IMG/VR virus record: IMGVR_UViG_3300035172_000274
Location: 1-46,083 of that record
Length of the DNA: 46,083 bases
From: a virus
Reading direction: 5' to 3' (one strand)
The position numbers were made by a program, and so were the translations under genes. The notes beneath the pieces were generated by a model. The model was not told where the DNA came from. It ran no database searches and was given only the letters and a program-made list of their open reading frames with translations. This document shows positions 1,183-42,262 of the stretch, in pieces; positions within the stretch are counted from its first letter, which is position 1, and each line of letters starts with the position of its first letter.

Positions 1183-1444
1183 ATACGAAACCATCTTCGA
1201 AAATGAGAATACGAATATATTTGTCTCTGGCCGGTTTGCCTTCCGAGGCCTTCACGCCGATCTTATATTGCATCTGTTGCATCACGTTCCGTTCGAGAAC
1301 CATATGCAGAGCTATATTGAAGTCACTCAGCAGCCTGGGCGGAAGGTCGCTTGGCATAACCTGGACGTCTCCATCAGGTAATCCTTGTGCTGAACGCTGT
1401 TCTTTTTGTTTCCTGATTATTTCTTCTAGTTCTTGTTGATTCAT
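1142..1444 (-). CDS. Small protein of unknown function (paralogue set, member 1)
   Basis: 100 residues; the start at ATG 1444 is supported by AGGGAGAA just upstream. The N terminus is a charged helix rich in Glu, Gln and Lys, followed by a helical segment and a short beta-type stretch, KYIRILIFEDG, that loosely matches the HIIFV/HVIFV cores of the next two genes. It sits directly after the GT-A gene in the island between portal and minor head protein. Function unknown. Confidence 0.65.
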   Translation of the reverse strand: MNQQELEEIIRKQKEQRSAQGLPDGDVQVMPSDLPPRLLSDFNIALHMVLERNVMQQMQYKIGVKASEGKPARDKYIRILIFEDGFVYDPEVNSGLPASN

Positions 1445-1452
1445 ATTTCTCC

Positions 1453-2154: not shown

Positions 2155-2570
2155 ACTGCATCCGTCCTTTTTTGTTCATCGACTATGGATGCTACCTCTT
2201 CAGGCGACCATTCTTTTCCCTTGTTTATGCCGGGGCAAAATGAACTTAGGCTTTCCCATTTATTTGGCTCCATGTGTTCTGGAAAGAAAGGGAAGTTTCG
2301 ACAGGCAGCGGGTCTGTGTTCGTAGATGCCGCATTTGGTACCCTCTAGGAAACGACAACGGTCTTTATTATTTACCAGGTACCAGGACTCATCCGGCTTG
2401 CCGTTTGATCGCCTTGTGTAATCAAATTTTCCGTATGCTGCCCAATCGGTTCTCTTAGTGCCAAGATGTTTTTCGATTCGGAGCATGTCGTATTCTGTCA
2501 AGAAAACGAAACCGCAATCACCTTGTGCCACGCAGCACTTCCCGCAATCTGGCTGACACTCAAATCTCAT
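2151..2570 (-). CDS. YkgJ-family cysteine cluster protein
   Basis: 139 residues from ATG 2570, chosen for an excellent GGAGG 6 bases upstream. The cysteine pattern is that of the YkgJ/UPF0153 family, putative Zn- or Fe-chelating proteins: CQPDCGKCC at the N terminus, then CRFLEGTKCGIYEHRPAACR, then a late Cys in SSFCPG. Such proteins sometimes accompany modifying enzymes but have no firm function. Its stop overlaps the start of the GT-A glycosyltransferase (ATGA), so the two are probably made together. Confidence 0.75.
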   Translation of the reverse strand: MRFECQPDCGKCCVAQGDCGFVFLTEYDMLRIEKHLGTKRTDWAAYGKFDYTRRSNGKPDESWYLVNNKDRCRFLEGTKCGIYEHRPAACRNFPFFPEHMEPNKWESLSSFCPGINKGKEWSPEEVASIVDEQKRTDAV

Positions 2571-2621
2571 AACAATCCTCCGGAGAATTTGCATGGAGTA
2601 ATGTTCGTAGATGATTTGGAA

Positions 2622-4151
2622 TCAGGTTTTGGCTTGTTTGACTTCGTCTGCTTCTTGAGAGGAGCCTTCTTTGCCTTTAGACTTCGGGGCGCCTTCTTCG
2701 TTTTCCTGGTCGGCTTGTGCGTCTTTTTCTTCATCGATTAATGCAAGCGTCTGTTCGTCTGTGTCGAGCTGAATACTCAGCAAGCTATCTTTATTACAGG
2801 CATCCCTGAATTCCAATGAAGAAATTTCACCAGACGTTTTTGCTGCGAGGAGTCGATTGAATTTCTGGGTCTTCACGTTCTCTTCTTGTTCGGCCGACAG
2901 AACACGAAGTGGCTCGAACTCTATACAAAGATCCGTGGGAATCATTCCGTACTGTTGCTGACAACGCAGCTGCACCATGCGGAGAAGGTCTTTCTTGGCA
3001 AAACTGCGTATTTGGCTCTCGATCATCGCGTTATAGACTTCGATATCGTCTTCACCGGAATTGAATCCGGCCGCGGAAATTCCAAACAATTTCGTGAGAG
3101 GCATGCGCAGATCGGAGGCTACTTGTTTCCGGATACCGTCCATTGTCTCTGCGATGCCTGCGAAAGTGAGTTCTTTTTGGATGAAGTCATCCTCAGAGTC
3201 CATCACAATAGCGTGGTTGTAGTTTTTGAGTTGGTTGGCCATGGCTACTCGATTGCGCACTGTTTGTGTTCCAGTAGCGGCGAGAAGTGTGTTGGCCAGA
3301 TTCTTCATCTTGTATACGTCGACCTTGAACTCATCGAGGACTTCAAAAATCAGATTGTTGGTCTTCAGGTATTGGTTGATCGAATCAATCATGGATTCGC
3401 AAATCGATAGGCCCCATCCATGCAGTCTAGGCCTCAGAAAAGAAGGCGCATTGACGCCAATCTTCTTCAGAACCCTAGAACGATGAATTTCCCTACCGTA
3501 ATAGTCATAGTAATCAGTGACGTCCAGATTTTGAGCGTCTATTGCGAGGGAATAATCATCCGTATTTTGCTTGGTCCAGTAGAGTTCCCACATATCCACG
3601 GCGCGGAACTCCAGCGGATCTCCAACTCGGATCGCTTGGACGTTTAGTGGTTGATAGAAGTCTTGATTAGTGATGATGAGCGTTCCGGCACCACCGAACA
3701 ATCTATTCCAAGTTAGGGCATCTGCCTCTACAAGCAAATCTCCCTCTGTCTCCATGACATTCTGAATATCTTTGATTTGATCGGGGGAGAGTTGCTTTGA
3801 AATGATTTCGAACCCACCACGAAGCGCATCCTCCACAGGCACTCTGCATGCCGTTCGGATCAATCCCTTTTCACAATACGCCTGGGACAACATCTGCCGA
3901 AAATTGGATATGAAGTAATAGCGCAGATTGATCTGCATGGTAGTGACTTGTGTGATCGGTGTCCCTTGATTCGGACCGAATGGAAGTCCATTCCATGCGT
4001 TGCTGTTCATGCCTAGAAGAGCATCGGAGAGACCATTCACCACTGTATTGCGGAAAGTCTCTTCAGAAATTATGCCTGTTTCAAAAGGCATTGGTTTCGG
4101 CTTAAGGGACTTTGAACGCGGCGTGGAATTCTTTGTGATTTTCTTGGCCAT
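2622..4151 (-). CDS. Portal protein (DUF1073 family)
   Basis: 509 residues, typical portal length. It matches the DUF1073 family of phage portal proteins (Pfam now names this domain the N-terminal domain of Acb1-like proteins). Recognisable parts include YCEKGLIRTACRVPVEDALR near residue 90, the LFGGAGTLII core, and the C-terminal wing/stem region with KLFGISAAGFNSGEDDIEVY. The last 45 residues are a charged Lys/Glu/Gln tail. The portal forms the dodecameric ring at the capsid vertex through which DNA is pumped. GGAG lies 6 bases before the ATG. It follows TerL with one small gene between. Confidence 0.9.
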   Translation of the reverse strand: MAKKITKNSTPRSKSLKPKPMPFETGIISEETFRNTVVNGLSDALLGMNSNAWNGLPFGPNQGTPITQVTTMQINLRYYFISNFRQMLSQAYCEKGLIRTACRVPVEDALRGGFEIISKQLSPDQIKDIQNVMETEGDLLVEADALTWNRLFGGAGTLIITNQDFYQPLNVQAIRVGDPLEFRAVDMWELYWTKQNTDDYSLAIDAQNLDVTDYYDYYGREIHRSRVLKKIGVNAPSFLRPRLHGWGLSICESMIDSINQYLKTNNLIFEVLDEFKVDVYKMKNLANTLLAATGTQTVRNRVAMANQLKNYNHAIVMDSEDDFIQKELTFAGIAETMDGIRKQVASDLRMPLTKLFGISAAGFNSGEDDIEVYNAMIESQIRSFAKKDLLRMVQLRCQQQYGMIPTDLCIEFEPLRVLSAEQEENVKTQKFNRLLAAKTSGEISSLEFRDACNKDSLLSIQLDTDEQTLALIDEEKDAQADQENEEGAPKSKGKEGSSQEADEVKQAKT

Positions 4152-4163
4152 GGAAGTCTCCGA

Positions 4164-4454
4164 TTACTTCCCGCCTTGCTTCTTATAGAAATACTGGACG
4201 AACGGCCAGCGCACTTCTCCGAATGCGTGCTGGCTCGCGCGCTTCGATTTTTCCCACAACGCTTCGTCTACGTTCTGCATATCTTCAACGGGCTGTTTGA
4301 AGGAGTCAGGCCTAGCTTGCTTGTCCGTATCGGCAGGAATCATTCCATATTCTTTCAATGCGTCTGATAGGCCCTCGAACTCTTCATTTTCATTGAGGCA
4401 GAAGTTCGAACCATATCGGACTCGTCCCATAGCGACTTTATCTCTGATTTCCAT
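4164..4454 (-). CDS. Small protein between TerL and portal
   Basis: 96 residues with a strong ribosome binding site (AGGAGGGGAAA) before ATG 4454. The N terminus, RDKVAMGRVRYGSNF, closely resembles the last residues of the protease/scaffold protein encoded at 44126 (DKVSRGKARYGSN), an unexpected similarity between two different head-operon proteins. The C-terminal part is aromatic and basic (RWPFVQYFYKKQGGK). Function unknown; its position suggests a head assembly or packaging accessory. Confidence 0.75.
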   Translation of the reverse strand: MEIRDKVAMGRVRYGSNFCLNENEEFEGLSDALKEYGMIPADTDKQARPDSFKQPVEDMQNVDEALWEKSKRASQHAFGEVRWPFVQYFYKKQGGK

Positions 4455-4463
4455 TTTCCCCTC

Positions 4464-5819
4464 CTAGAGAACATCGAACATTGAAATTTCTTGAGTAAGC
4501 TCATTGAAGGCGCCCGAAAGAGCGTCCACTTGGTCAACATGGCCCTCTGTATCTTCGGAGAAGTTTTCCAGCTCCGAGAAGAATTCTTCGTTCCATGCCC
4601 CTTTTAATACCTTAACATTCCCTGCTTCACATTGCGCGGACACCGGCAGCGCGCGGGTTACCTTGTCGGCAGAAGGCTTTGACACGCGTACGTCATACCC
4701 TGCGAGCAACCGCACCATATTTTGTGCATCGGCAATACCCGAAGAGCCAGGCTCTTGCTCGATGACTATCCTGCAATTGTGGGTGTCTTGGGAAGCAATG
4801 TTTCTGATGAACTGCTCGACCTGCAGCGGCGTGTCTCTAATGCCTGCGACGTCCGCGACGATGAACGTCCCATCGGACATTTTGAAAAGTCGGACCCCCC
4901 TGGTCCAACAAGGATTCGGATTTCCTGGATTGGGCTTGGTTGCGGCGCGATCCCAAAATCTGACCTGCATCACCACTTGGGCAGGGAAAGCCTCTATAAT
5001 CCTAAACCAGCCCCGCTGGAACATGGTCCCCGCAGAGGCCGTAATGTTCCAATTGCCCTTCAGAAGTCTTTCCCTTTCTACCTTGGACAAAGCCATGAGG
5101 TTCGCCAGGTAGGCAGGGTCCTTCTCCATGAGGATCTTATTGTCGTGCAGCAATGAGGGGATAAAGGTGAAAGACTTAGGATGCTGCGCGGAGCCGTATT
5201 TATCTATGAGTTCTTTTCTGGAGTCAGCCCAAAGAAACATATCGTCCTGCCGAATAAACCATCTCAAGACGCCAGATCTTTCTGGTATGGGGAACCCCTC
5301 TGGTCCTATCCACCAGTCCACAAGTTGGCGAACCCAAGAATTAGCATCTGGATTACAGGTTCCACGCATTCTCCCGGGCAGACCGGACATGGAGCGGTTC
5401 CTTGAAAGCATGTACCAGAACTGTTTTGAGGTGAAGTGAGTGAGCTCATCCCACCCTATCCAGGCGATCTGAGAGCCCTGCCAATCGTAAACCGTGTTCT
5501 CGTTTTCGAGATGCGCGAACTTAACCGGCATTCCGCCGGGGAATTTCCACTCTAGTGTGGCCTGTCTCGGGTGTCCTCCTAGTGGGTAATAGAGCTTCAT
5601 GCTCTCATCCCAAAGACCTCCCTGGTTTCGGACCTGCACAGAATTGCGGCGGAATATGACGGCGCCGAAACGAGGATTTTTCAAATGGTAGAGGGGGTCC
5701 AAAAGCAGGCTATATGTCTTCCCCCCTCCGGCCCCTCCGCCAAAAAGGGCAATATCCGCATCACACATGAGGAACTGTTCTTGGGGCCCAGGTTGGGGTC
5801 TAATCTCTTGTAACGACAT
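4464..5819 (-). CDS. terL: Terminase large subunit
   Basis: 451 residues, T4 gp17-like (Terminase_6). ATPase: Walker A GGGAGGGKT at residues 27-35, Walker B IAWIGWDE at 118-125, then RMRGTCNPD. The RNase H-like nuclease domain starts near residue 285: the first Asp in VRFWDRAAT (Asp290), acidic centre in IVIEQEPGSSG (about 354-356), last Asp in HVDQVDALSGAF (429/432). It forms the packaging motor with the portal and cuts concatemers. The start overlaps the end of the small terminase gene by 20 bases. Confidence 0.95.
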   Translation of the reverse strand: MSLQEIRPQPGPQEQFLMCDADIALFGGGAGGGKTYSLLLDPLYHLKNPRFGAVIFRRNSVQVRNQGGLWDESMKLYYPLGGHPRQATLEWKFPGGMPVKFAHLENENTVYDWQGSQIAWIGWDELTHFTSKQFWYMLSRNRSMSGLPGRMRGTCNPDANSWVRQLVDWWIGPEGFPIPERSGVLRWFIRQDDMFLWADSRKELIDKYGSAQHPKSFTFIPSLLHDNKILMEKDPAYLANLMALSKVERERLLKGNWNITASAGTMFQRGWFRIIEAFPAQVVMQVRFWDRAATKPNPGNPNPCWTRGVRLFKMSDGTFIVADVAGIRDTPLQVEQFIRNIASQDTHNCRIVIEQEPGSSGIADAQNMVRLLAGYDVRVSKPSADKVTRALPVSAQCEAGNVKVLKGAWNEEFFSELENFSEDTEGHVDQVDALSGAFNELTQEISMFDVL

Positions 5820-6207
5820 TCTTGGCCGGGAGAATCACCACGACTTCCCTCTCCGTAGGTATCAATGGCGAATCATCCACTCCGACCAATGGTGTGGGGA
5901 CCTTTCCAATCAGCCTATTCAAGATAACTTCCCAAGCATGCACATCGCCTTTTTGAATGGCTTTGGCTGCGATTTGTGCGGTCCAGACCATGAAGACCGT
6001 GGAGGCGGGATCTTTAATAATCCGCTTCAACCCTTCCAAATCCTGTTTCAAAACGATATCGGTCATCTCCTGAACCTGTTCTTTGGCTAACATCTTCATT
6101 TCCTTCATGCCCACGAATTTACCGTTATAGCCAGTTGGATTTCGACCTGGTTCGCCCTTTTTGACTGGCTTGAGATAGGCATTTTGTTTTCTGGTAACGG
6201 GATTCAT
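5800..6207 (-). CDS. Terminase small subunit (putative)
   Basis: 135 residues from ATG 6207, chosen for TAGGAGTAACGTTT just before it; an in-frame extension to 6309 lacks such a site. The basic, Gly/Pro-rich N terminus (KPVKKGEPGRNPTGY) is followed by a helical body ending in DVHAWEVILNRLIGKVP, a pattern common in proteins encoded directly before TerL. It overlaps terL. Assigned mainly by position, size and the first-gene role in the head operon. Confidence 0.7.
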   Translation of the reverse strand: MNPVTRKQNAYLKPVKKGEPGRNPTGYNGKFVGMKEMKMLAKEQVQEMTDIVLKQDLEGLKRIIKDPASTVFMVWTAQIAAKAIQKGDVHAWEVILNRLIGKVPTPLVGVDDSPLIPTEREVVVILPAKNVVTRD

Positions 6208-6335
6208 AAACGTTACTCCTACATAAGATATTAACATCGAAGCTGCAATTTTTTCATTTGCATGATTCACGGCGTTGATATTTAAATGAAATTCTCTTCT
6301 TAAAGCCAATTGATGCTGTTCCTTGTTGATGGGTG

Positions 6336-6369
6336 GGGGAGGCGGGGAATTAAAACGCTCCGTCTCCCC
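6336..6369. other. GC-rich hairpin upstream of the terminase genes
   Basis: GGGGAG (6336-6341) and CTCCCC (6364-6369) pair, continued inside by CGG/CCG with one mismatch, giving a nine-pair stem. Neither strand has a T-run after it, so it is not a clear terminator. Its place between the early-operon terminator and the small terminase gene makes it a candidate element for packaging recognition or for late-transcript leader control. Confidence 0.4.
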
Positions 6370-6377
6370 TTCGCATT

Positions 6378-6432
6378 AAAAAACCCCGAAGAAAAACTCC
6401 ATGGGTAAAGTATTAGGAGCTCTTCATCGGGG
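6378..6432 (-). terminator. Intrinsic terminator of the leftward early operon
   Basis: On the minus strand CCCC(GAT)GAAGA pairs with TCTTCGGGG, with a further inner pairing CTCC/GGAG, and is followed directly by TTTTTT. It lies about 45 bases after the stop of the RecU-like gene, so it closes the early leftward operon and separates it from the terminase genes on the same strand. Confidence 0.75.
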
Positions 6433-6477
6433 CCAGTTGTTGAAGTATTCCGAAGGGTGAGAACGCTCCGAAACGCT

Positions 6478-6966
6478 TCAAGCCCGTTGTATCATGTCTG
6501 GGTCACGTGAAAAGAGAAGTCTGGTATCGAATTCTGATAGTCGGCCTAGGGGCGTGCCTTGTGAGCGCCCGAATTGCAGGCGTCGGCCGTGTCGTTGGAT
6601 ATCCAATCCTGAGTAATAGACCACCCAATCTAACTTCTCGAGCCACACCACAAAACCAGATGGCACCTTACTTTCATTTAGCTGAATGGCGCGCGCGAGT
6701 TGCGTGGAATCGATATCAGAATAGGTGAAATGTATTCGGTTGAATGCCTTACAATCGAAAAATCCAACGTCCCCTGTTTTTGTAACAACGGTGAAGTCGA
6801 GGTGGCTCTTCAGCGGTTGCCAGCGCATGCCTACGCGCCGACAGCTTATTTCGTTCTTGATGGGCCATAGACCTCGAGACAGGCATTCCTTACGAAAAGC
6901 CTCCTCAAAAAATTTACCTTGAGCCTGATTACTTGCGCCCTGAGAGAGCCAAGGGATTCTGGGCAT
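6478..6966 (-). CDS. RecU-like / PD-(D/E)XK Holliday junction resolvase
   Basis: 162 residues from ATG 6966, just after the stop of the upstream gene whose end (CGAG) may serve as ribosome binding site. Family features: an N-terminal helix with QGKFFEEAFRKECLSRG, a catalytic strand HLDFTVVTKTGDVGFFDCKAF (Asp, then Asp-x-Lys), and FTYSDIDSTQLARAIQLNES followed by SGFVVWLEKLDWVVYYS. RecU enzymes resolve four-way junctions during recombination and replication. Last gene of the leftward early operon, before a terminator. Confidence 0.75.
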   Translation of the reverse strand: MPRIPWLSQGASNQAQGKFFEEAFRKECLSRGLWPIKNEISCRRVGMRWQPLKSHLDFTVVTKTGDVGFFDCKAFNRIHFTYSDIDSTQLARAIQLNESKVPSGFVVWLEKLDWVVYYSGLDIQRHGRRLQFGRSQGTPLGRLSEFDTRLLFSRDPDMIQRA

Positions 6967-6970
6967 TGCA

Positions 6971-7192
6971 TTACTCGATTCCGAGTTTTTTCGCCTGCTC
7001 TGGATTGGAAGAGAGTAAAAATGACGAGAGGCCCCATTCGACCACCTGCCGGAGCGTGAGGTTTCGTTTCTTGAGTTCGGAACGGACCAAGACGAGCATT
7101 GCTGCATTCACCTCGGCTGTGATCAATATTTTGGCTTCCTTTTGAGTACTAGGAATCGGAATAGACCCATGGCTTTTCATAGAATGTTTCAT
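6971..7192 (-). CDS. Small ribbon-helix-helix-like protein
   Basis: 73 residues; GGGGAAG lies 6 bases before ATG 7192. A short strand (EAKILITAEVN) is followed by two helices (AMLVLVRSELKKRNL and TLRQVVEWGLSSFLL), the order seen in ribbon-helix-helix DNA-binding proteins. It ends four bases before the RecU-like start. Possible operon regulator or accessory protein; the fold is inferred from pattern only. Confidence 0.55.
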   Translation of the reverse strand: MKHSMKSHGSIPIPSTQKEAKILITAEVNAAMLVLVRSELKKRNLTLRQVVEWGLSSFLLSSNPEQAKKLGIE

Positions 7193-7228
7193 TGTTTCTT
7201 CCCCATATGCAAATACATCCTATCGTAT

Positions 7229-7561
7229 TCATTCTGCAAGTCCCAATCTTGACTCTAATCCCTTTCTCACCGCGGCAGTCATATCTAATCCGTCGGCGCC
7301 TAAGGACTGCGGAATATATTGAATTGCTTCCATTGGAACTCTTCCTGAGGGGGACTTCCAATAAGACATCAATCCGCCCTCATCGGTAACTGTAATTTTT
7401 CCCATTATCACGATACTTGTGCGGCGTTTATTCAAGAAGACCAAGAGATCCCCGGAGGAAAGCCTTTCTATTTTCACGCCAGCCTCTTGAGCCTGAGACC
7501 AGAGACCAGGCTGTCTTGCCCTCATATCCGCATTCAGAATTAAGTATTTGATTTTTTTCAT
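7229..7561 (-). CDS. Conserved-looking phage protein, function unknown
   Basis: 110 residues from the ATG at 7561, which overlaps the stop of the upstream gene (ATGA). The N-terminal half shows alternating strands and helices (KIKYLILNADMRARQPGLW, then SSGDLLVFLNKRRTSIVIMG), suggesting a compact alpha/beta or SH3-like domain. No catalytic motif is visible. Part of the tightly coupled leftward early operon. Confidence 0.65.
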   Translation of the reverse strand: MKKIKYLILNADMRARQPGLWSQAQEAGVKIERLSSGDLLVFLNKRRTSIVIMGKITVTDEGGLMSYWKSPSGRVPMEAIQYIPQSLGADGLDMTAAVRKGLESRLGLAE

Positions 7562-9600: not shown

Positions 9601-9630
9601 AGGATACCATATACATGGGTATATATGCAA
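9601..9630 (-). promoter_or_regulatory. Promoter candidate for the leftward early operon
   Basis: On the minus strand TTGCAT (9630-9625) and TATCCT (9606-9601) are separated by 18 bases, close to a sigma70-type promoter. The first gene's GGAGG and GTG follow within about 25 bases. The region is the divergence point between leftward and rightward early genes. Confidence 0.4.
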
Positions 9631-9646
9631 GGCCAATTAAAGGCCT
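9630..9646. promoter_or_regulatory. Inverted repeat, operator candidate
   Basis: AGGCC (9630-9634) and GGCCT (9642-9646) form an inverted repeat around AATTAAA, abutting the -35 element of the leftward promoter. A dimeric regulator bound here could control both divergent early units. The arms are short, so chance cannot be excluded. Confidence 0.35.
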
Positions 9647-9698
9647 ATGGTTCCGACGAGTTGACGAGCTCAGGGTTGGCCTGCAGGATTGCCTCTAT

Positions 9699-10373
9699 AT
9701 GGCCAAGCTCAAAACCATCCCAATTCGCTGTAAAGGGGCCTCTACCTTGAAGCTCTCGGAACTCCATGACTTTCAGGGCAACTTGAAAGTGCTCACGTTC
9801 GAAAATCAGGGCAAACTGGAGCGTGAGATTCTTGAACTCGGGTTTTCCGAGCCCGTAAGTGTTTGGGTAGATAAGAAGAAAAAAGCCCACATCCTGAACG
9901 GTCACCAAAGGGTGCGAACCGTGAAGGCCCTTGTTGAACGTGGTTCTCACGCATGTCCAGGGCTTCCAGTGAGCTTTGTGGAAGCCGATAACATGAAACA
10001 GGCCAAACAAAAGGTGCTCGCTCTAACCTCTCAATACGGTTCGATGACAGACGATGGACTCAGAGAGTTCCTGGATGACTCTGGACTTGGCTTAGAAGAC
10101 CTCGAACGTTTTGAATTCCCGGAAATCAATCTGGACAATTTCCGTTTGGAAGCCGAAGGGGAAAAGGCGCCCGGCGAAAAGGTGGCGGTCTCTTTCGATG
10201 CTTACCAAAACGCCGCCATCAAACAGATTGTGGTTTACCTGGCCAGAGAAGACTACGACAAGGCCCTACCAAAGCTCGACGCCCTAATGGATAAATGGGA
10301 ACTCGAAGACTATTCTCAGGTCATCTGGAGACTCATAAATGAAGCGGTTCCAGCTCTCTCGAAAAGAGATTGA
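9699..10373 (+). CDS. ParB-like nuclease-fold protein of the DNA modification cassette
   Basis: 224 residues from ATG 9699 (AGGA 10 bases upstream; an in-frame ATG at 9615 would add 28 residues). The first 110 residues form a ParB/Srx-type domain: a strand-rich start, LEREILELGFSEPVSVWVD, then the hallmark ILNGHQRVRTVKAL. The C-terminal half is acidic and helical (EDYDKALPKLDALMDKWEL). ParB-like proteins accompany TET/JBP dioxygenases and DNA glycosyltransferases in published phage hypermodification neighbourhoods. It overlaps the dioxygenase gene by 35 bases, implying joint translation. Likely role: DNA binding, CTP-dependent clamp or nicking to guide modification; which one is inference. 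Confidence 0.8.
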   Translation: MAKLKTIPIRCKGASTLKLSELHDFQGNLKVLTFENQGKLEREILELGFSEPVSVWVDKKKKAHILNGHQRVRTVKALVERGSHACPGLPVSFVEADNMKQAKQKVLALTSQYGSMTDDGLREFLDDSGLGLEDLERFEFPEINLDNFRLEAEGEKAPGEKVAVSFDAYQNAAIKQIVVYLAREDYDKALPKLDALMDKWELEDYSQVIWRLINEAVPALSKRD

Positions 10374-11160
10374 CGCCAAAAAGCTGCAACGCCGAACCGC
10401 GCAGGAATCCGACACCTCCCTAATTTACGACGAGCCAGGAGTGTACGAACTCGACAGCAAACCGGTCATCATTTACGGAAGGCTCGAAGAGCGACACAAG
10501 GATATTCTGTGGGCGGTCAAAACTTTGGGCATGCAAACGGCAACCAGAGAGACTTCCAAAGACGGTTCCAGCCGCATTTTTGGCTTCCGTCCTAGAATCA
10601 CAATGGGAAGCGGCAACTTCTGTTCGGTCACTTCTGCATTCGAGACCCATCCAGAGCAACACAAAATCATTTGCGAGTTCGGAAAAACGTTAGACCGAGT
10701 TTACAAAAAGAACGCTCCAAAGGTTTACCAAAAGCATCAAAGGTTGCTGGCAGAATTCATCAAGAAAGATTGGCGGATTCCCGGAACGAGTTTCACATCT
10801 GGCATCGTTAACCGAAACAATCCCCTTCTCTATCATTACGACAAAGGGAACTTGTTCGACGTCATGAGCTGCATGGTTGTCTTTCGTCACCTTTGCGAAG
10901 GCGGGTTCTTAAGCATCCCGGAATTCGGCGCTCGTTGGTTATTGAACGACCGAAGTTATTTTCTCTTCGATGGTCAGAGCTGTCTTCACGGGGTCACTCC
11001 GATTCAAAAACTGAACCAAAAAGCCTACCGCTATTCCGTTGTCTATTACGCTCTACGAAAGATGCAGGAATGCGGAACGAGAGAAGAGGAACTCTGCCGT
11101 GTTCGCACCAATCGTCGATTAGTCGAAAAAAGAAGAGCCACCAAGTCGGAGCAACCCTAG
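10339..11160 (+). CDS. TET/JBP-family 2-oxoglutarate/Fe(II) dioxygenase
   Basis: 273 residues; GGAG lies 8 bases before ATG 10339. Residues about 148-238 carry the double-stranded beta-helix signature: HYD (His166, Asp168) within LLYHYDKGNLFD, EGGFLSIPEFG, then LHGVTP (His217) and RYSVVYY (Arg231). His-x-Asp plus distal His bind Fe(II), and Arg binds 2-oxoglutarate. The order and the GGxLxxPE and HGVxP elements fit the TET/JBP group, which hydroxylates the methyl of 5-methylcytosine or thymine in DNA. It overlaps the ParB-like gene and faces a TET-associated glycosyltransferase. No methyltransferase partner is visible. The basic, Arg/Lys-rich C-terminal 35 residues may contact DNA. Confidence 0.8.
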   Translation: MKRFQLSRKEIDAKKLQRRTAQESDTSLIYDEPGVYELDSKPVIIYGRLEERHKDILWAVKTLGMQTATRETSKDGSSRIFGFRPRITMGSGNFCSVTSAFETHPEQHKIICEFGKTLDRVYKKNAPKVYQKHQRLLAEFIKKDWRIPGTSFTSGIVNRNNPLLYHYDKGNLFDVMSCMVVFRHLCEGGFLSIPEFGARWLLNDRSYFLFDGQSCLHGVTPIQKLNQKAYRYSVVYYALRKMQECGTREEELCRVRTNRRLVEKRRATKSEQP

Positions 11161-11201: not shown

Positions 11202-11939
11202 TCACTTCGGCCGGAACGCAGCCCAGTTGATCTTCACATCCGGGCGCCCATCTTTTTTGATCGTGGCCTTGCAGATATTTGGCCAGGCGTCTTCCATTCT
11301 CTGACTCGCGGTTTTTTCCAAACCCGAGCGATAGATGTCGTAGAGGCCGCCCTTATTGCTACCGTTTTTGGGCGCTGCAAAAGAAAGCTTGCTACTTCGT
11401 ACAGTTAGCATGCCACTAGCAAGCACCTGTAAGGTGAAGTCTCGGTCCTCCTTGAGGTTCATTTCCGGTCGATAGTTCAGATTTTTGGTCCGCTCCACAT
11501 TGATGGCTACGGCGACGTCACAGTATCCAATGGCATGTTCCTTTTTGGCAGACCATGAGAACTGTTGATACTCGAGCGCTCCCTGACCTACTTGTCCCAG
11601 TGACTGGAAGATTTTCTGTGCTTCCGCCAATACTATGGCCGGATCGGTCTTGTGATTTCTGCCGCCTTCGGACCGATTGAAGCCGGTGATGTCATCGTCC
11701 AGCATCCAAAACCATTTGTGGTTCAGCTCCCGGCACAGATTGAGAACGAAATTCCGAACGTAGGCTATGCCTTGGTTGTCTTTCTGCAAAGAAAGTAGCT
11801 TACTGCCGATTTCGTTGACACGGGCGTAGGCGCCCATGTCCTGAGGCTCCACAATCAGCGTGTGCGGGATCGCCGCCAAAGTCTTGGCAGTGGCTGGATT
11901 CGGACGGCCTTTCGACGGTATATAAATCGGCCAAATCAT
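11202..11939 (-). CDS. TET-associated glycosyltransferase (TAGT-like, GT-A fold)
   Basis: 245 residues. The N-terminal YIPSKGRP, then GIAYVRNFVLN (about residues 57-67) and WFWMLDDDITGF (Asp81-Asp83) match the family of GT-A glycosyltransferases encoded beside phage TET/JBP enzymes, where the Asp triplet holds the metal and nucleotide sugar. RPEMNLKEDRDFTLQVL resembles the acceptor-side acidic motif of GT-A enzymes. Convergent with the dioxygenase gene, 41 bases apart. Proposed role: add a sugar to the hydroxymethyl base in DNA. Its own promoter should lie between 11940 and 12228. Confidence 0.82.
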   Translation of the reverse strand: MIWPIYIPSKGRPNPATAKTLAAIPHTLIVEPQDMGAYARVNEIGSKLLSLQKDNQGIAYVRNFVLNLCRELNHKWFWMLDDDITGFNRSEGGRNHKTDPAIVLAEAQKIFQSLGQVGQGALEYQQFSWSAKKEHAIGYCDVAVAINVERTKNLNYRPEMNLKEDRDFTLQVLASGMLTVRSSKLSFAAPKNGSNKGGLYDIYRSGLEKTASQRMEDAWPNICKATIKKDGRPDVKINWAAFRPK

Positions 11940-18302: not shown

Positions 18303-18529
18303 ATGGACCTGACTCATATCATACGTCTGAAACAAAATATTTCGTCTTTGAAGCGCATCATGTGCACTCAAGCGTGCGACTTGAATGCGATAGCCTTTAC
18401 TCAGCGGTGCTCCATGTTTTTGATGGTAAGCAGCAGGTTCAGATAAGGCTAGATTCTCCGGCACTCCTTAGCCTTTGGAAGGTTATGGATTTATGGGCCG
18501 GAAAACAAAATCCACAAGGTGAGAAATGA
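18299..18529 (+). CDS. Unknown small early protein
   Basis: 76 residues, ATGA-coupled at both ends. Strand-rich (KYFVFEAHHVHSSVRLECD) with several His, followed by a Trp-containing helix (SLWKVMDLWAGKQ). No known domain. Confidence 0.6.
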   Translation: MNGPDSYHTSETKYFVFEAHHVHSSVRLECDSLYSAVLHVFDGKQQVQIRLDSPALLSLWKVMDLWAGKQNPQGEK

Positions 18530-19251
18530 ATAACTACGAACGCATCCTCACTCCATACCGCAATCAACTAGCAAAATTTATCGACGATAACTACATGACG
18601 TTGGAAGCGCCTAGAGCCATGGAAGCGCTGCAGAAATACACCAGGCTTGGTTATGAGATGACTAAGGATGTCGTCCATTGGCTTACTTGTGCAGGAGATA
18701 CTTGTTTCGATTTTGGGGTAGCGAATTTTCTTGTGGCTCGGGCTGAAGAAGAAGAAGGCCATGAAAAACTAATGACGAGAGATGCCGACAAGCTAGGCGC
18801 AGCAGGTAACTTTTCGTTAGCCCCAGGGGTTAGGCAATATGAGCGACTGCACTGGGAAGCCATCAAAGAAAGTTGGGGGGCAATTGTCCCCATAATGTAC
18901 GAAATCGAAATGCTGTCCATCACCCACGGCCCGAGAATTCTGGACCACGTGAAAAAGGTTCTCGGAGAAGACGTTGTAAATTCACTTTCCTTTCTGCAAA
19001 GCCACGTGAACTTTGACGTCACGCACACCAAAGAGAATCGCGAGTGCATGGAAATGATGCTTAAGGACGACCCGTCGAAATTACCGCACCTGGTAGAATA
19101 TGGAGTGAGGGCACTTTCTGCCTACCAACTATTCCTCCAGGACTGTCTAAATGAAGCAACGCAAGGCGTGGCTATCTCGTCAGCGGGACGGGAACTACAT
19201 GTTCAGTCTTCTCAAGCCGGTGAAATCGAGGGTTCTGGGAACGGAATATGA
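18526..19251 (+). CDS. Haem-oxygenase-like diiron protein (HDO-type)
   Basis: 241 residues, all helical. Residues 71-90 (ARAEEEEGHEKLMTRDADKL) and 157-170 (LQSHVNFDVTHTKE; His160, Asp164, His167) match the ligand motifs of haem-oxygenase-like diiron oxidases and oxygenases, with another candidate ligand in YEIEML (Glu126). Members hydroxylate, desaturate or N-oxygenate small molecules. Its role here may be to make or modify a sugar, amine or nucleotide used by the modification genes. The C-terminal 34 residues are dubious because the next gene reads the same DNA in another frame. Alternative: a non-catalytic helical bundle. Confidence 0.55.
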   Translation: MNNYERILTPYRNQLAKFIDDNYMTLEAPRAMEALQKYTRLGYEMTKDVVHWLTCAGDTCFDFGVANFLVARAEEEEGHEKLMTRDADKLGAAGNFSLAPGVRQYERLHWEAIKESWGAIVPIMYEIEMLSITHGPRILDHVKKVLGEDVVNSLSFLQSHVNFDVTHTKENRECMEMMLKDDPSKLPHLVEYGVRALSAYQLFLQDCLNEATQGVAISSAGRELHVQSSQAGEIEGSGNGI

Positions 19252-19721: not shown

Positions 19722-19784
19722 TTGGTTTTGGGTTGGGGAGTACCATAATTAGCAATGGGTCGACCTGTTAAGTCGGAATATGCC

Positions 19785-19811
19785 GGGGCGGAGCCGGCCT
19801 CCCCAGCTTTT
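19785..19811 (+). terminator. Weak terminator-like hairpin
   Basis: GGGGCGG (19785-19791) pairs with CCTCCCC (19798-19804) except for one C/T mismatch, loop AGCCGG; AGCTTTT follows. It lies in the only non-coding gap of this part of the early operon and could lower readthrough to the genes beyond. Confidence 0.4.
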
Positions 19812-19823
19812 AGGAGTAAACAA

Positions 19824-19868
19824 ATGGACCAACGGGCTAAATCCTTCGCAGAAACCTCGAGATTTTGA
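19824..19868 (+). CDS. Possible 14-residue peptide
   Basis: ATG 19824 has TAGGAGTAAACAA directly upstream, a strong ribosome binding site, and opens MDQRAKSFAETSRF then TGA. The site is better than that of many neighbours, so translation is likely even if the product only serves as a leader peptide for the next gene. Confidence 0.35.
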   Translation: MDQRAKSFAETSRF

Positions 19869-19874
19869 GAAGTC

Positions 19875-20084
19875 ATGAGCGGCATCCCACTGAAAAAGCG
19901 GCAGCGATTAAATCGAGAGCAACGTCTATGGAAAAAGGGATACGCTTATTTCAATTCCTGGACCAAAACGCCCGAAGCTCAAGAACTGATAGAAAAGTCT
20001 CTTAAAGAGCCGAATCCGTTTTTGAAGATTCCAAAGACCAGTGATTGGGGCGCCTATATACCTGTCCCGTTACAGTGGCCATGA
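19875..20084 (+). CDS. Small basic protein
   Basis: 69 residues. A basic N terminus (LKKRQRLNREQRLWKKGYA) precedes a helical middle and Pro-rich C terminus ending VPLQWP. Its stop overlaps the ATG of the glycosyltransferase gene (ATGA). Function unknown. Confidence 0.6.
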   Translation: MSGIPLKKRQRLNREQRLWKKGYAYFNSWTKTPEAQELIEKSLKEPNPFLKIPKTSDWGAYIPVPLQWP

Positions 20085-21165
20085 TTCATAACTTGCATTT
20101 TTTTCATCTGCCGGCTTTGATTCGCACACGAACCGAAATTATCGAATTCTTCTCGCTTACAAAAACTTCTCCAAAGATTGCAACGTATCCCATATAGGAC
20201 TCGGCGTTACTGCTGCCTATACTGCTAAAACACTCATGGCTAATGGCATCATTGCCCAAGCCTTCCCGGCCTTTGGTGCGGACGACATCGGCAACTATGT
20301 AGAATCCCAGGAATCATCTCCACGTCCGATCACTCACGTCATCGTAATGGCTCAGTGGATTCCGACGATATTTCTAGCAAAGCTTTGCAGAAAATTTCCG
20401 CACGTTAAGTTCACCTTGAATTGCCATTCGAACGTAGGTTTCTTGCAAGCGGAGCCAAGGGCCATTGACCTGCTGAGAGAGGCGATTGATCTAGAGACTG
20501 GGACAACGAATTTCTTTGCCTCGGCGAACAACCAACGCCTGGCCAGCATCTTGGGGAGCATATATGGGAGACCAGTGCAGTATCTGCCAAACCTGTATTA
20601 CCTCCATGGACACGAACCTATTCATCGACCTCTGTATAATGGTGGCCCTCTTCGCATCGGCGCTTTTGGGTCTGCTCGCGTGTACAAAAACTTCTCGACG
20701 GCAGTCACCGCGGCCATGGAAATAGGGTTCATGTTGAAGGTTCCAGTTGAGATTTGGATGAACGCCGGTCGATCGGACGGCGCTGGAAATATCGTCTACA
20801 AGACAGCCAAAGCCTGGACGCATGATGTTCCTGGCGTGACACTGAAGGAACTCCATTGGTGTTCCTGGCCAGATTTCAAAAGGTTCTGCGGCACAATGAA
20901 CCTAATGTTGCAGCCGTCGTATACGGAGACATTCAATAACGTGACTGCGGATGGAATTGCTGAGGGCGTTCCATCCGTTGTCAGCGACACGATTGAATGG
21001 GTTCCTGAGAGTTGGAAGGCTTCCAGTGATGACTCGAAGGACGTTGCCGCTGTAGGGCGGAGACTTCTATATGATCACCACGCACCAAGAGAGGGCTACG
21101 AGCACCTGAGAAAATACGTACAGAATGGGTTAGAGTATTGGAAAACCTACCTTGCCAGACCATGA
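20081..21165 (+). CDS. GT4-type glycosyltransferase with a frameshift at a T7 tract
   Basis: The ATG at 20081 overlaps the preceding stop (ATGA) and starts MIHNLHFF, but the frame shifts after TTTTTTT (20098-20104). The body reads on in the -1 frame as SSAGFDSHTNRNYRILLAYK, then VSHIGLGVTAAYTAKTL, and so on to 21165. A slip on the T7 or an eighth T joins them into 361 residues. The only in-frame start for the body alone is ATG 20236, which would lose the first strands. The C-terminal half is GT-B: PLRIGAFGSARVYKNF for the nucleotide-sugar loop, and SYTETFNNVTADGIAEGVPS with the conserved Glu. The acceptor is unknown. Confidence 0.75.
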
Positions 21166-21409: not shown

Positions 21410-21769
21410 TTATCGAGAAGGAAGAGCCTTAACGGGACCGCCGTCAATCATTTGTGGCTGTACAAGTTCAATCGTTTTACACGGTCGAATATCCACAGGG
21501 GTGAAATATCCGTAGAAATGTCCCATGATAAAACCCATTGCGAAGATAGTTGCAGGCGCCTTCAGACCAGCCCAAATCATCACGGCAGATATTGAAGTCC
21601 CAACCTTCCCGTCCTTAACCATCCAAACATCCCAGGCTGCAGCCGTTCCAATGAGAACCAGAACAAGAATGGCTGTGGGCGCATGAGTCGGTAAAAGAGT
21701 TACGAATAAAGAAACAACTCCTACAGAGATGACCAGCGTCGTTATTATTAGGTTTCTGAAGGTCATCAT
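21410..21769 (-). CDS. Small membrane protein with three helices
   Basis: 119 residues. Hydrophobic segments at about 6-26 (LIITTLVISVGVVSLFVTLL), 31-48 (PTAILVLVLIGTAAAW) and 62-85 (AVMIWAGLKAPATIFAMGFI). Coupled to the papain-like protease gene by ATGA. It may export or retain that protease, or act as a holin-like protein; neither is shown by sequence. Confidence 0.65.
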   Translation of the reverse strand: MMTFRNLIITTLVISVGVVSLFVTLLPTHAPTAILVLVLIGTAAAWDVWMVKDGKVGTSISAVMIWAGLKAPATIFAMGFIMGHFYGYFTPVDIRPCKTIELVQPQMIDGGPVKALPSR

Positions 21770-22722
21770 CGGCGGCGATGCCTTTTTTGATCGCCCAATT
21801 CAAACACCAATGCATCGTGTCCTATTTGATTGCATCGGTTGCCATTGATGTCCGTGACTTTCATAGTGATGTATCCGGCATCTCCCCAAGGACCCCAAGA
21901 GTTCCTCACCAAATAAGTTCCAATACCCGGAGGCAAATTGCCATTGGGATCAAGAGCACAATTGCCAGAACTATCCACAGAACCTTCACAATCATAACCC
22001 TCAATAACCACCATGTGGTCGATGTCATTTTCTCCTCCCTGGCAGACATTATAGACGCCACCGGAGTAGTTTTCCCATTCCCCAGATCCGGCTGCGACAT
22101 CAGTAGAGACCGGATGATTTTGGGATATTTGGCTGGCTATGTCGTAGAAACTCGGCCCGTTATTATCTCCCAGAAGTTGATATCCGGCTGCCTGCGCGAT
22201 CGCTTTTCCCTTTACGCATTTCCCTTGGGAACCGGAGTAGGGAGCGCGATCGTAAGAATAATCACCTTGAATACCTTTACCACCCTGAATAAGCCATTCC
22301 GCAGCAGATAAGTCCCCTCCGTTACAACCATAATCGTCCGTGTCGCAATTCAGGAGGTAGTTGAAACTAAGTCGACCAGGGTCTTGATTGGCAAGAATCA
22401 TGGTCCCTCGAAGAACTGTAGTCAGAGAAAAATCCCAACAGCTACCGCACTGTCCTTGATCCTCTACTGGTCCGGCCGTTCCTCTTAGGGAAATTGACTT
22501 CGGAATCGGGGAAGCGCCCAAGTGACTTCGTTTGAGTTTCTTGGACTCACGTAAAAACTTCTTCGCGTGTTCATGTCTCTTAAGTCCCTTGTGGTGCTTG
22601 TGACCATGCTCGATTGTTCTGAAGTTCTTTACTGGCTGAGGAACAGGAGATGGTGGAACAGGCTTACTGCTGTTGCATCCACAGAAGAACATCAAAAACA
22701 TAAAAGGTAATAAAATTTTCAT
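21766..22722 (-). CDS. Papain-like (C1A) cysteine protease, predicted lipoprotein
   Basis: 318 residues from ATG 22722, preceded by GGGGGAAAA. A signal peptide MKILLPFMFLMFFCGC with lipobox is followed by a His/Lys-rich linker (about residues 35-70). The catalytic domain has all papain landmarks: oxyanion Gln91 and nucleophile Cys95 in DQGQCGSCWDFS, CNGGD with the conserved CxGG, His236 in HMVVIEGYD, Asn274 in VRNSWGPWGD. The usual inhibitory propeptide is absent or replaced by the linker. It should act at the periplasmic or outer surface of the host. Secreted papain-like proteases are rare in phages. A short membrane protein is coupled downstream. Confidence 0.85.
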   Translation of the reverse strand: MKILLPFMFLMFFCGCNSSKPVPPSPVPQPVKNFRTIEHGHKHHKGLKRHEHAKKFLRESKKLKRSHLGASPIPKSISLRGTAGPVEDQGQCGSCWDFSLTTVLRGTMILANQDPGRLSFNYLLNCDTDDYGCNGGDLSAAEWLIQGGKGIQGDYSYDRAPYSGSQGKCVKGKAIAQAAGYQLLGDNNGPSFYDIASQISQNHPVSTDVAAGSGEWENYSGGVYNVCQGGENDIDHMVVIEGYDCEGSVDSSGNCALDPNGNLPPGIGTYLVRNSWGPWGDAGYITMKVTDINGNRCNQIGHDALVFELGDQKRHRRR

Positions 22723-22773
22723 TTTTCCCCCGAATTGATTTGACGCACCCATCACACGAAAATCCTCATCCGC

Positions 22774-22782
22774 TGCTACAAT
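22774..22782 (+). promoter_or_regulatory. Extended -10 promoter candidate for the rightward lysis/surface genes
   Basis: TGCTACAAT fits an extended -10 element. It lies about 90 bases before ATG 22871, in the 148-base divergent gap between the protease and the small membrane protein. No clear -35 box is seen. Confidence 0.3.
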
Positions 22783-22870
22783 ATTCGTTGGTGTGACGTC
22801 ATGGGAGCGGCGGAGGGCTAGTGGGGCACTCGTCTCACTTCCCTTCGTTCCCAAAACAAAGGAGACACAA

Positions 22871-23062
22871 ATGGCACAAATTTGGCAAGATATTTTGAAT
22901 ATCATTCAAGGCGTGAAGACAGGAACCTGGGCAGCTGTCGCTGGCGGAGCGGTGGCATTACTCGTTGCAGTAGCATCTATGTTTCCGAGCGTGGTCCCTG
23001 CGTGGCTTGCTACCCTGGTATCTGGTTTGTGGGCAGCGATTCATGGCGCGTTAGGGCACTAA
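22871..23062 (+). CDS. Small membrane protein, holin candidate
   Basis: 63 residues with AAAGGAGACACAA before ATG 22871, one of the best ribosome binding sites in the genome. One or two hydrophobic stretches (WAAVAGGAVALLVAVASMFP and VPAWLATLVSGLWAAIHG), hardly any charge. Size, amphipathic start and place at the head of the surface/lysis block suit a holin or small pore-former. Confidence 0.6.
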   Translation: MAQIWQDILNIIQGVKTGTWAAVAGGAVALLVAVASMFPSVVPAWLATLVSGLWAAIHGALGH

Positions 23063-23393: not shown

Positions 23394-23742
23394 TGGTTGC
23401 GGATCTATTCGCGCTCCGAAAATTCCCATAAAGGACATGGAGTTCTGCGAGCCTTCTCCGAGAGATGGTGTTTTCTGCAGTAAGATGCTCTCGAAGACCA
23501 TTCGCACTATCCCTGAGTCGGACAAGGTGGATTTTCTCACAACGGCGAATCCTCCGAGAGTTTCCGTGTCTATGGAGGACATAGCTTGGGTAGAGACGTT
23601 CATAGAGTCTGTTTGCAACGAGAATCCAAAGCTTTGTGATCGCACGTTTCTAAAAAAAACTCGGGAGATGTTCGACAGACACCGCAGAGCCAGAAGGCAA
23701 CACCGGGGACTTCCGCCCACAATGGAGGCTAGAAATGAATAG
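23338..23742 (+). CDS. Predicted lipoprotein, outer spanin candidate
   Basis: 134 residues, GGAAG 6 bases before ATG 23338. Signal peptide LCLISILLVSGCG with lipobox VSGC; the mature part is polar with four Cys and a basic end (RHRRARRQHRG). It overlaps the previous gene by 56 bases and the trypsin-like gene by eight. Longer than typical o-spanins, so another envelope role is possible. Confidence 0.6.
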   Translation: MQNLRPGRTLCLISILLVSGCGSIRAPKIPIKDMEFCEPSPRDGVFCSKMLSKTIRTIPESDKVDFLTTANPPRVSVSMEDIAWVETFIESVCNENPKLCDRTFLKKTREMFDRHRRARRQHRGLPPTMEARNE

Positions 23743-24610
23743 ATTTTTAATAGCTATCGTTTCCCTTTTTTTATCGTCCTGTTCCGAGGGGGTCCCAGTG
23801 TCCCCGACCCTTATAGGCGGAAGGGTTCCTTCGAAGGGGGATTTTCAAGCCGTGATATTCAGCGGAGGGTGCACAAATACTCTCGTAGGGAGCCGCGCAG
23901 TATTGACCGCCGCGCATTGCGTGAACACATCGATGGTTTTCTCAGTAGGCAGAGACAGCTTCAAAGCCGAATGCAGAATACCAAAAGAGTACTCGGACGG
24001 TGATATCTCAGCTGATAATTCACTTTGTTTTCTCGAGAGGGAAGTGAAAGGCATTGAGTTCGAGAGTCTCGATATCACAGATTCTGTTTCGACAGGGGAT
24101 CAGGTTCTTTTGTCAGGTTTTGGTTGTACGAAAAAGGGTGGGCCTACGGATGGTATTTTCCGCATTGGAGAGGCCATCGTTTCTACCAAATCCACCCGCA
24201 TGGGAGATGGATATTTCGTTACCCGCAAACCCGTGGCAAATTTGTGCCCTGGTGACTCCGGTGGGCCATGTTGGAGCATGAAGGACGGCAAGAGAGTGTC
24301 AGTCATAGGAAATAACTCTCGAAGCGACCTTGAGAATTATAGCTACATCGCGTCAACCTCTGCGAAATCCTTTGTCAGGTTCTTAGCGGCGTGGAAGAAA
24401 ATCCATCCCGAGGCCAGGATTTGCGGCGTGGATCTCGACGCGAAGGGCTGCCGTGGGGCCAAAACTCCTACAAAGCCCCAGACGGAGTTTGAATTGGACC
24501 ATGAGGTGGCATGGGTCGGTGTCATCATGAAACCGCAATACGTGCCAGTTTTAGAGAAATTCAGGAGGATTGTGGAGGCAGCTCTGGGGTCGTTGGTGCC
24601 TTCCCGGTAG
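23735..24610 (+). CDS. Trypsin-like (S1) serine protease, predicted lipoprotein
   Basis: 291 residues. Signal peptide MNRFLIAIVSLFLSSC with lipobox at Cys16, then an N-terminal IGGR that in trypsins becomes the new N terminus after activation. Catalytic triad: His61 in VLTAAHC, Asp94 in ISADNSLCFL, Ser175 in CPGDSGGP. Disulphide cysteines are present (SGGC, AAHC, FGC, NLC). A C-terminal extension of about 60 residues follows. It should be exported and anchored at the cell envelope. Such lipoproteins are common in Bdellovibrio-like bacteria. Its 3' end overlaps a convergent gene by 50 bases. Confidence 0.85.
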   Translation: MNRFLIAIVSLFLSSCSEGVPVSPTLIGGRVPSKGDFQAVIFSGGCTNTLVGSRAVLTAAHCVNTSMVFSVGRDSFKAECRIPKEYSDGDISADNSLCFLEREVKGIEFESLDITDSVSTGDQVLLSGFGCTKKGGPTDGIFRIGEAIVSTKSTRMGDGYFVTRKPVANLCPGDSGGPCWSMKDGKRVSVIGNNSRSDLENYSYIASTSAKSFVRFLAAWKKIHPEARICGVDLDAKGCRGAKTPTKPQTEFELDHEVAWVGVIMKPQYVPVLEKFRRIVEAALGSLVPSR

Positions 24611-34204: not shown

Positions 34205-35944
34205 TTATGGGTTGACGTATACGATCATCGACCCGGATTGGATAGCGCCAGCGTACTTGATGGCCACCTGCACTAGCGGGGCCACGCGAGCCTGACGTTG
34301 AGACGGAGATTGCTGAGATATGGGTACAGAATAAATGTAGTACCCGTACTGAGCTATATTCGCCAAAAAGTCTGCTTGATTGCCGAAGGTCGTAGGATTG
34401 GTCCATTTACCTGGAGCCACAAATCCATTGGTAACGGCCTGCTCACAAACCTGACGGGCCGCAGCCTTCAGGATGTCCATGCCTTGTTCGGTCTGTGGAA
34501 TCTTGGTGTTTGTCTGGGCCAGAGAATTCACTTCGGCTACCAGAAGAGCTCCAACCAACCATTGAAGGTTGTCTTGATTATCGAAGAAGTCATTAGCTCC
34601 CGATGTGAACACTTTTGGAACGCCTTGCAATGAAGGATAAGTATCCGCACCAGCATTGATGGCTAGATTTAGATACGACTGCGAGAGGCTGGGGTCTGGT
34701 TGAACGCCAGCCAGTGTTTTCAGGTGCATGGTCTGTGTGGTGTTTGATCCAGAATAATTCGTAGAGAACCCACGACCAGAATATGCAGCCATATATACCA
34801 AAGCGTTCGCTAAAACATCTCCATAGTACAAGCCACGACTCTGAGTAAACCCACCAGAACGAAGCAGGTCCAAAGTTCCGCCAGGCATGATATCCGCGAC
34901 AGTATTGTCGACGAGCATCAACAATTTATTCAAAGGCTGCACGACCCTCGCCGCAGCCAATTGAACTTGTTGAACAGGTATTTCAGCAGTCATGATTCCA
35001 AAATATTGAATTAAGCCTTGGGTTCTGAGAATCGCCTGATCCAGCGTCTCAGCACTAGAACCAGGAACCAATAGGGTCACTACCGGTACAACCGAGACAT
35101 TGTTCGAGTCCACAAGGGTATTGCTGGTGACAGTGAAAGGGAACCCGGCGCCAACTACACCGTCTAGGACAATGGTGAATCCATCCGAAAAGCTTCCGGA
35201 GACCTGCGCAGATCCAAGACCAGAAATGGTCTGGACTGCCGTCTGAACTGCCGCAGCATTACCGTTGAAGGAAATAGAGCTGGAGCTGAGACTATTATAG
35301 GTCAAAACAAAAGCGCCTGCTGCCGGAGTCGCTGGGAAGCTAACCAGTTGGGTATTCGTTTGAGCATTGTTTAGGTACGGAATGATGACGAGGTAACCGC
35401 CATTCGCCAGGATATTTGGCTGCTGAGAGAATATCGCGTTCGCCATCGCGAATGTGTTAGATGAACTACCAAAATCGATCCCCACCTGCGTAGGTGAAAG
35501 ATAGATCTGATATCCCAAGGTCCCAAACGAAGATGCATATGCCTCTCTGCTGAATATGACGAGGTTGCTGGTGTTATAAGCCCCGAATCCTACTTGAGGC
35601 GTGGAGATTGAAATATTGAAAACGTTCGCGAGAGAGAGATTGATTTGAGGCGCCAATGTCGTTACGGCCAGCTGGCTTGTCGTGACGGATGCCGGAGTTC
35701 CGGCGCTGTCTACCTGAACCATCAGGTAGTAATAAACCGTTTTTGGGGTCAAATTGCTGTCGTTCAAGGTGAGCGCAGTTGCACTGGCTACAGCGTTGGA
35801 GCTCGCCGGAATAAAACCGCTCGAGGTCGATCTGTACCATTGGTACGCATAGGGTGTGGTCCCCCCGGTTGGGGCAGTGGCCAAAAGGCTATCTGACACC
35901 GCCGTAACAGAAATTTGGCTTAGTGAGCCTGCTGAAAGTGACAT
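34205..35944 (-). CDS. Tail sheath protein (DUF3383) with N-terminal Ig/FN3-like domain
   Basis: 579 residues. From about residue 105 it is a DUF3383-type sheath (LANVFNISISTPQVGFGAYN, LVIFSREAYASSFG; C-terminal LVQVAIKYAGAIQSGSMIVY). The first 95 residues are an added beta-sandwich domain (GTTPYAYQWYRSTSSGFI, LTPKTVYYYLMVQVDSAGTP) which recurs at the N terminus of the decoration protein (43326). A further beta domain sits at about residues 215-290. The fused domain probably lies on the tail surface and may bind host glycans. Confidence 0.85.
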   Translation of the reverse strand: MSLSAGSLSQISVTAVSDSLLATAPTGGTTPYAYQWYRSTSSGFIPASSNAVASATALTLNDSNLTPKTVYYYLMVQVDSAGTPASVTTSQLAVTTLAPQINLSLANVFNISISTPQVGFGAYNTSNLVIFSREAYASSFGTLGYQIYLSPTQVGIDFGSSSNTFAMANAIFSQQPNILANGGYLVIIPYLNNAQTNTQLVSFPATPAAGAFVLTYNSLSSSSISFNGNAAAVQTAVQTISGLGSAQVSGSFSDGFTIVLDGVVGAGFPFTVTSNTLVDSNNVSVVPVVTLLVPGSSAETLDQAILRTQGLIQYFGIMTAEIPVQQVQLAAARVVQPLNKLLMLVDNTVADIMPGGTLDLLRSGGFTQSRGLYYGDVLANALVYMAAYSGRGFSTNYSGSNTTQTMHLKTLAGVQPDPSLSQSYLNLAINAGADTYPSLQGVPKVFTSGANDFFDNQDNLQWLVGALLVAEVNSLAQTNTKIPQTEQGMDILKAAARQVCEQAVTNGFVAPGKWTNPTTFGNQADFLANIAQYGYYIYSVPISQQSPSQRQARVAPLVQVAIKYAGAIQSGSMIVYVNP

Positions 35945-42196: not shown

Positions 42197-42232
42197 AAAC
42201 AAAAAAGGGAAGGAGGTCTGCGCCTCCCTCCC
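42197..42232 (-). terminator. Intrinsic terminator after the major capsid gene
   Basis: On the minus strand GGGAGGGAGG pairs with CCTCCTTCCC (ten pairs, one G-T) around CGCAGA and is followed by TTTTTTGTTT. It ends the strong capsid transcript and probably lowers expression of the GT9 and fibre genes that follow on the same strand. Confidence 0.85.
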
Positions 42233-42262
42233 CTTCAACCCCAATTGCACTAACCCCGAAAT

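Follow-up and report, generated by a model that had tools for sequence, protein, structure and literature searches.

Probable singleton frameshift, rather than an evolved switch, at the start of a phage GT4 glycosyltransferase gene

Slippage at homopolymers near the starts of glycosyltransferase genes serves as an on/off switch in bacteria. A phage locus in which the start of a putative glycosyltransferase is out of register with the body, and a run of seven T residues lies between the two, raises the question of whether such a switch, a slipping ribosome or simply a damaged gene is being observed. The locus lies in the window analysed here, a single IMG/VR virus record of 46,083 bases from a contractile-tailed phage (portal, terminase, tail sheath and baseplate genes are present). 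Direct reading of the sequence confirmed the layout originally predicted, namely an ATGA-coupled ATG, a T7 run and a body in the -1 frame (Table 1). The frame opened by ATG 20081 (frame 0) translates to MIHNLHFFHLPALIRTRTEIIEFFSLTKTSPKIATYPI, 38 residues before the TAG, and reading through both frames yields the unbroken product of 361 amino acids that had been claimed. ATGA coupling is the local gene style, 4-nt overlaps being found at 4 of 8 neighbouring junctions in the upstream gene cluster; a search for relatives of the upstream ORF found none. No ATG, GTG or TTG occurs in the body frame between 20092 and 20236, and upstream of the body initiation codons (ATG 20081 and two TTG) exist in frame 0 only. 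Hence a change of frame is required somewhere between about 20084 and 20143, unless translation begins at an unconventional start. Farther upstream, an ATG at 19824 with a good Shine-Dalgarno (SD) sequence (AGGAG) opens a 14-codon frame ending in TGA, and the ATG at 19875 resumes the same frame a few bases on; 19824-19875 is possibly an interrupted or re-initiating small gene.

Table 1. Features at and around the glycosyltransferase locus (window coordinates).
Feature	Coordinates	Strand	Remarks
tRNA-Asn(GTT)	19734..19807	+	Upstream of the glycosyltransferase gene
Upstream 69-aa ORF	19875..20084	+	TGA overlaps ATG 20081 by 4 nt (ATGA)
Frame-0 reading from ATGA-coupled ATG	20081..20200	+	39 codons to TAG 20198-20200
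Open frame with glycosyltransferase body	20092..21165	+	-1 relative to ATG 20081; preceded by TAA 20089-20091
T7 run, phase CAT TTT TTT CAT	20098..20104	+	Fits X_XXY_YYZ in frame 0; probable break site
Conserved GT-B/GT4 body	20143..21162	+	Homologous to relatives (two alignments)
Beta-strand 1 of N-terminal Rossmann domain (RILLAYK)	20143..20163	+	DSSP of model, residues 16-22
First in-frame ATG of body frame	20236..20238	+	Residue 47, within helix 1
FGSARVYKN, putative GT4-type donor-site R...K motif	20665..20691	+	R194 and K197 invariant
ETFNNVTAD, putative EX7E-like motif, D as second acid	20926..20952	+	E277 and D285 invariant in family

Single-protein searches of IMG/VR, the phage collection and genome_contigs with the 309-aa body recovered no relatives. 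The N-terminal half used as query found two, and alignment searches of growing depth raised the count to 16 and finally to 44 loci, every one of them from IMG/VR; 50,697 phage records and the genome_contigs candidates gave no match to the family. The locus belongs to a phage GT4 family that is uncharacterised and, in these searches, was seen in IMG/VR alone. Identity to the window protein ranges from 40 to 69% among 15 aligned relatives, and the family profile matches window positions 20128-21153 (E 4.3e-169) without stops. The window copy scores below the Pfam cut-offs (Glyco_trans_1_4, 15.8 bits versus 27; GT4-conflict, 14.3 versus 26), and the same two models match 14-15 of 16 family members weakly, with a best E of about 1e-8.

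The assignment to a GT4-type glycosyltransferase, made originally from the sequence, was borne out by the predicted fold and motifs. An AlphaFold model built with a 16-sequence alignment (pLDDT 86.3, pTM 0.86) found its best PDB matches among GT4 enzymes, with Z scores of 20-25 (up to 25 over 310 residues) and a best Foldseek E of 2e-10; BshA, TarM, SenB and TreT are among the best structural matches. The predicted two-Rossmann fold extends over the whole body, as in the GT4 GT-B enzymes BshA, TarM, SenB, TreT and PimA, and the FGxxRxxKN and EX7-acid motifs are common to these enzymes and the window protein. From what is known of GT4 motifs, we take FGSARVYKN to be the donor-site R...K motif and ETFNNVTAD to be EX7E-like. 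The window protein differs from the known enzymes in sharing only 9-15% identity with them, in having D as the second acid of EX7E and in its out-of-frame start. Judged from the model, the body is a real, soluble GT4-type enzyme of the GT-B fold. Residues 1-12 of the model are disordered and helix 1 comprises residues 35-48. Most chains of the best structural matches begin at equivalents of model residues 13-15, with residues 1-3 of solved GT4 chains aligning there, right at beta-1. The N-terminal extension encoded at T7 is disordered and barely conserved. MIHNLHFF was considered as strand beta-1 and rejected, beta-1 being RILLAYK in the model. The claim that T7 splits a GT4 enzyme thus needs to be divided: the start is indeed out of frame, but the tract precedes GLGVTAAYTAK and everything that folds.

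Where the gene should begin was judged from the 32 records in which the YKNF...SHIGLG motif is recognisable and the N terminus alignable. In all 32, an in-frame ATG, GTG or TTG lies 3-24 codons before the Y of the invariant YKNF, often just 6-16 codons before it; the window alone is without one. The original prediction had allowed that relatives might start at the equivalent of ATG 20236, which none of the 32 does. That ATG was rejected as the true start, since it sits inside helix 1 and matches no relative's start; beta-1 and most of helix 1 are encoded 5' of it according to the AlphaFold model. All 33 genes sampled in the genome start with ATG or GTG. In the nearest relative, L011, a tRNA-Asn(GTT) (L011:2417-2494) directly precedes the glycosyltransferase gene, much as one stands upstream in the window; the genomic neighbourhoods of the gene otherwise differ, that of L011 being beside terminase. 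The L011 protein also carries an extra C-terminal tail with six consecutive histidines (L011:3607-3627).

Genome-wide the T7 run is unremarkable. The window contains 11 A/T runs of at least seven against 12.7 expected, and TTTTTTT occurs 13 times on both strands against 20 expected; long runs are not enriched. Within the ~51 nt open to the break, T7 is the sole run of at least seven, and the chance of such a run falling there is ~1.3%, taking 12 runs in 46,083 nt. Body-frame homology is firm only from about 20143, with a weak extension to about 20116, and the break may therefore lie elsewhere than exactly at T7: conservation is poor from T7 to beta-1, and in that segment upstream of beta-1 codon usage does not tell the frames apart. 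The read-through N terminus weakly resembles those of two relatives, L149 (MIH...; 3% of shuffles score as well) and L110 (9% of shuffles as good). All in all, T7 is likely the site of the frame break. A search of IMG/VR for a second copy of the locus, with exact flanks and a variable run length, found none, and T7 is known from one consensus.

The body itself appears still to be under constraint, with no sign of long decay. None of the 335 codons from YKNF onward is a stop. Of 50 alignment columns that do not vary among the other 15 members, the window breaks one (the others break 0-7). Its tree branch measures 0.225 against 0.244 for its sister, and third codon positions hold most of its differences (210, against 89 and 62 at the others). 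An intact, constrained body implies that the lesion is recent, artefactual or tolerated. The locus is one broken copy among intact homologues, as expected for a singleton indel or recent pseudogene. It resembles GeneTack singleton frameshifts and recent prokaryotic pseudogenes (PMC3711429) in having one broken member with intact homologues, a conserved body and a homopolymer at the break; it differs from them in belonging to a phage whose genome is represented by one metagenomic consensus, for which sequencing error stays an alternative. We consider it somewhat more probable than its alternatives combined that the locus is a lone frameshift lesion or polymorphism in a recently functional phage GT4 gene, and not an evolved switch. 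The gene would have encoded a soluble GT4-type (GT-B) glycosyltransferase, functional until recently, whose ATG, coupled to the upstream gene, now stands one base out of register with the body, most likely owing to a change in the length of the T run through replication slippage. Translation from 20081 would then mostly yield a dead peptide of 38 residues, and the enzyme would be absent or made at trace level through basal slippage. Three steps of this account are inferred: the placing of the break exactly at T7, the presence of the changed base in the virus population itself, and the loss of expression.

Two readings would give the run a function. The full enzyme might be made at low dose by a -1 ribosomal slip on T_TTT_TTT or by transcriptional slippage; the heptamer sits in the correct frame-0 phase, as the X_XXY_YYZ heptamers of dnaX, IS911 and IS3 do, and a body still under constraint would fit as well. 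Unlike those systems, the locus has no stimulators and no conservation, its site lies six codons past the start, and its heptamer is a poor one in E. coli. More precisely, no stimulator was found at T7, either as an SD-like element upstream (6-17 nt from the heptamer) or as a stable nested structure starting 4-10 nt downstream. The local RNA is less structured than its shuffles (z +1.3), and the nested structure downstream of the run is matched or surpassed at 72% of random positions. E. coli genes avoid UUUUUUU whatever the frame. Published figures speak against an efficient shift at U_UUU_UUU: in E. coli this heptamer is much less shift-prone than A_AAA_AAG (PMC5009743), and the heptamers tested in the absence of stimulators did not depart by more than about 10-fold from a background of 0.055% (PMC4066793). 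For bacterial transcript slippage, a review gives runs of 9 A/T (PMC5009743), longer than T7. Nor is the frame transition conserved in homologues, the starts being in frame in 32/32 relatives; runs of at least seven are absent from the 120 nt before YKNF in all 32, a few of which have a run of six. With neither stimulator nor conservation nor run excess, the productive or programmed slippage that had been proposed is quite unlikely. A low-level leak is possible, and would leave no trace in the sequence, but a programmed device is not indicated. The other functional reading is phase variation, an adaptive switch by which changes in T-run length would turn the enzyme on or off within the virus population. 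It draws on the finding that homopolymer tracts near glycosyltransferase gene starts switch by slippage in bacteria, and on the length of the run, which reaches the poly-A/T threshold of 7 nt or more used for screening in that work (PMC3711429). Here, however, the run is short and lies in a phage, not a cell-surface, locus; no relative keeps it (0/32), run counts are at chance level genome-wide and the case is a singleton, whereas programmed and phase-variable frame transitions form clusters (PMC3711429). The evolved on/off switch of the original prediction thus fails to find support, and we hold it to be very unlikely.

The two remaining alternatives deny that the virus carries a frameshift at all. 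One is that the length of the T run is an error of consensus or assembly and the gene in the virus is intact. This would account for the absence of decay, and a singleton homopolymer frameshift in an intact, constrained gene is its classic signature, such cases in intact families being classed as indel or sequencing error (PMC3711429). The record itself argues otherwise. Positions 1-127 and 45957-46083 form an exact 127-bp direct terminal repeat and relatives' proteins span the end-to-start junction, from which the record is probably one essentially complete circularised genome. A repeat of 127 bp is what circular short-read metaSPAdes assembly at k=127 leaves, suggesting that the window was so assembled (a k list ending at k=127 is documented for one JGI metagenome set; PMC7171226); run-length errors are rare in such assemblies. 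In a tblastn comparison of ORFs from about 100 related loci with the window, none of the other genes with relatives was frameshifted, and the other runs of at least seven do not obviously break genes, as judged by ORF positions and not one by one. Moreover, a separately assembled contig of the same virus from another metagenome (IMGVR_UViG_3300046679_000359), 99.7% identical over 1226-7525 (6.3 kb; 17 mismatches and one 3-nt indel), has the same length as the window at each of the seven runs of at least six that the shared stretch contains; this contig stops short of the glycosyltransferase gene. A real indel is the more likely of the two, and we regard error as unlikely. Alternatively, there may be no frameshift, translation beginning at an unconventional start near beta-1, or the start codon having been lost by substitution, with ATG 20081 and T7 forming an unrelated leader. 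The short distances seen in relatives would suit this idea, as would the solved GT4 enzymes that begin right at beta-1 and a T7-fused N terminus slightly longer than that of any relative. It has to contend with the lack of any in-frame ATG, GTG or TTG and of an SD near beta-1, with the exclusive use of ATG or GTG in the genes sampled and with an ATGA coupling at 20081 that fits the local style; it also leaves the run in so narrow an interval to a chance of about 1.3%. We judge it decidedly improbable.

Several further features of the genome were noted. A ParB/DNA-methyltransferase-like protein (9615-10373), a TET/JBP oxygenase (10339-11160; Pfam Tet_JBP, E 4e-13; named queuine tRNA-ribosyltransferase in PHROGs) and a TET-associated glycosyltransferase (TAGT; 11202-11939, E 2e-22) form a cluster that is likely, from its gene content, a cytosine hypermodification set. 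Searches for TET and TAGT genes in 16 records with the GT4 family gave no matches, the TET search having been run without a positive control and most records being possibly fragments. A heptosyltransferase-like GT9 domain (41162-42250, E 6e-9) adjoins the major capsid protein gene. The first ~100 residues of the tail-sheath protein (34205-35944) and of a Hoc-like protein encoded next to the capsid gene (43326-44105) match the same relatives, and the two proteins appear to have a decoration-like N-terminal domain in common. Unusual phage cargo includes a papain-family protease (21766-22905, E 5e-35) and a trypsin-like protein with a lipoprotein-type signal (23735-24610, E 3e-12). A protein of haem-oxygenase-like or iron-containing redox enzyme fold is encoded at 18526-19251 (PF14518, E 4e-6, just under the cut-off).

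There is a very slight chance that T7 is a lineage-specific contingency site in a glycosyltransferase that may serve the phage's own modification chemistry, alongside the encoded TET/JBP oxygenase and TAGT; the population would then carry in- and out-of-register lengths, and some virions would be without the sugar modification. If the run varied in clonal stocks, it would provide a simple, testable case of phase variation in phage sugar modification. As it stands, what was striking when a single sequence was read comes down, with relatives at hand, to a singleton frameshift, and the work reveals an uncharacterised phage GT4 family of 44 IMG/VR loci together with a phage that carries TET/JBP and TAGT genes.
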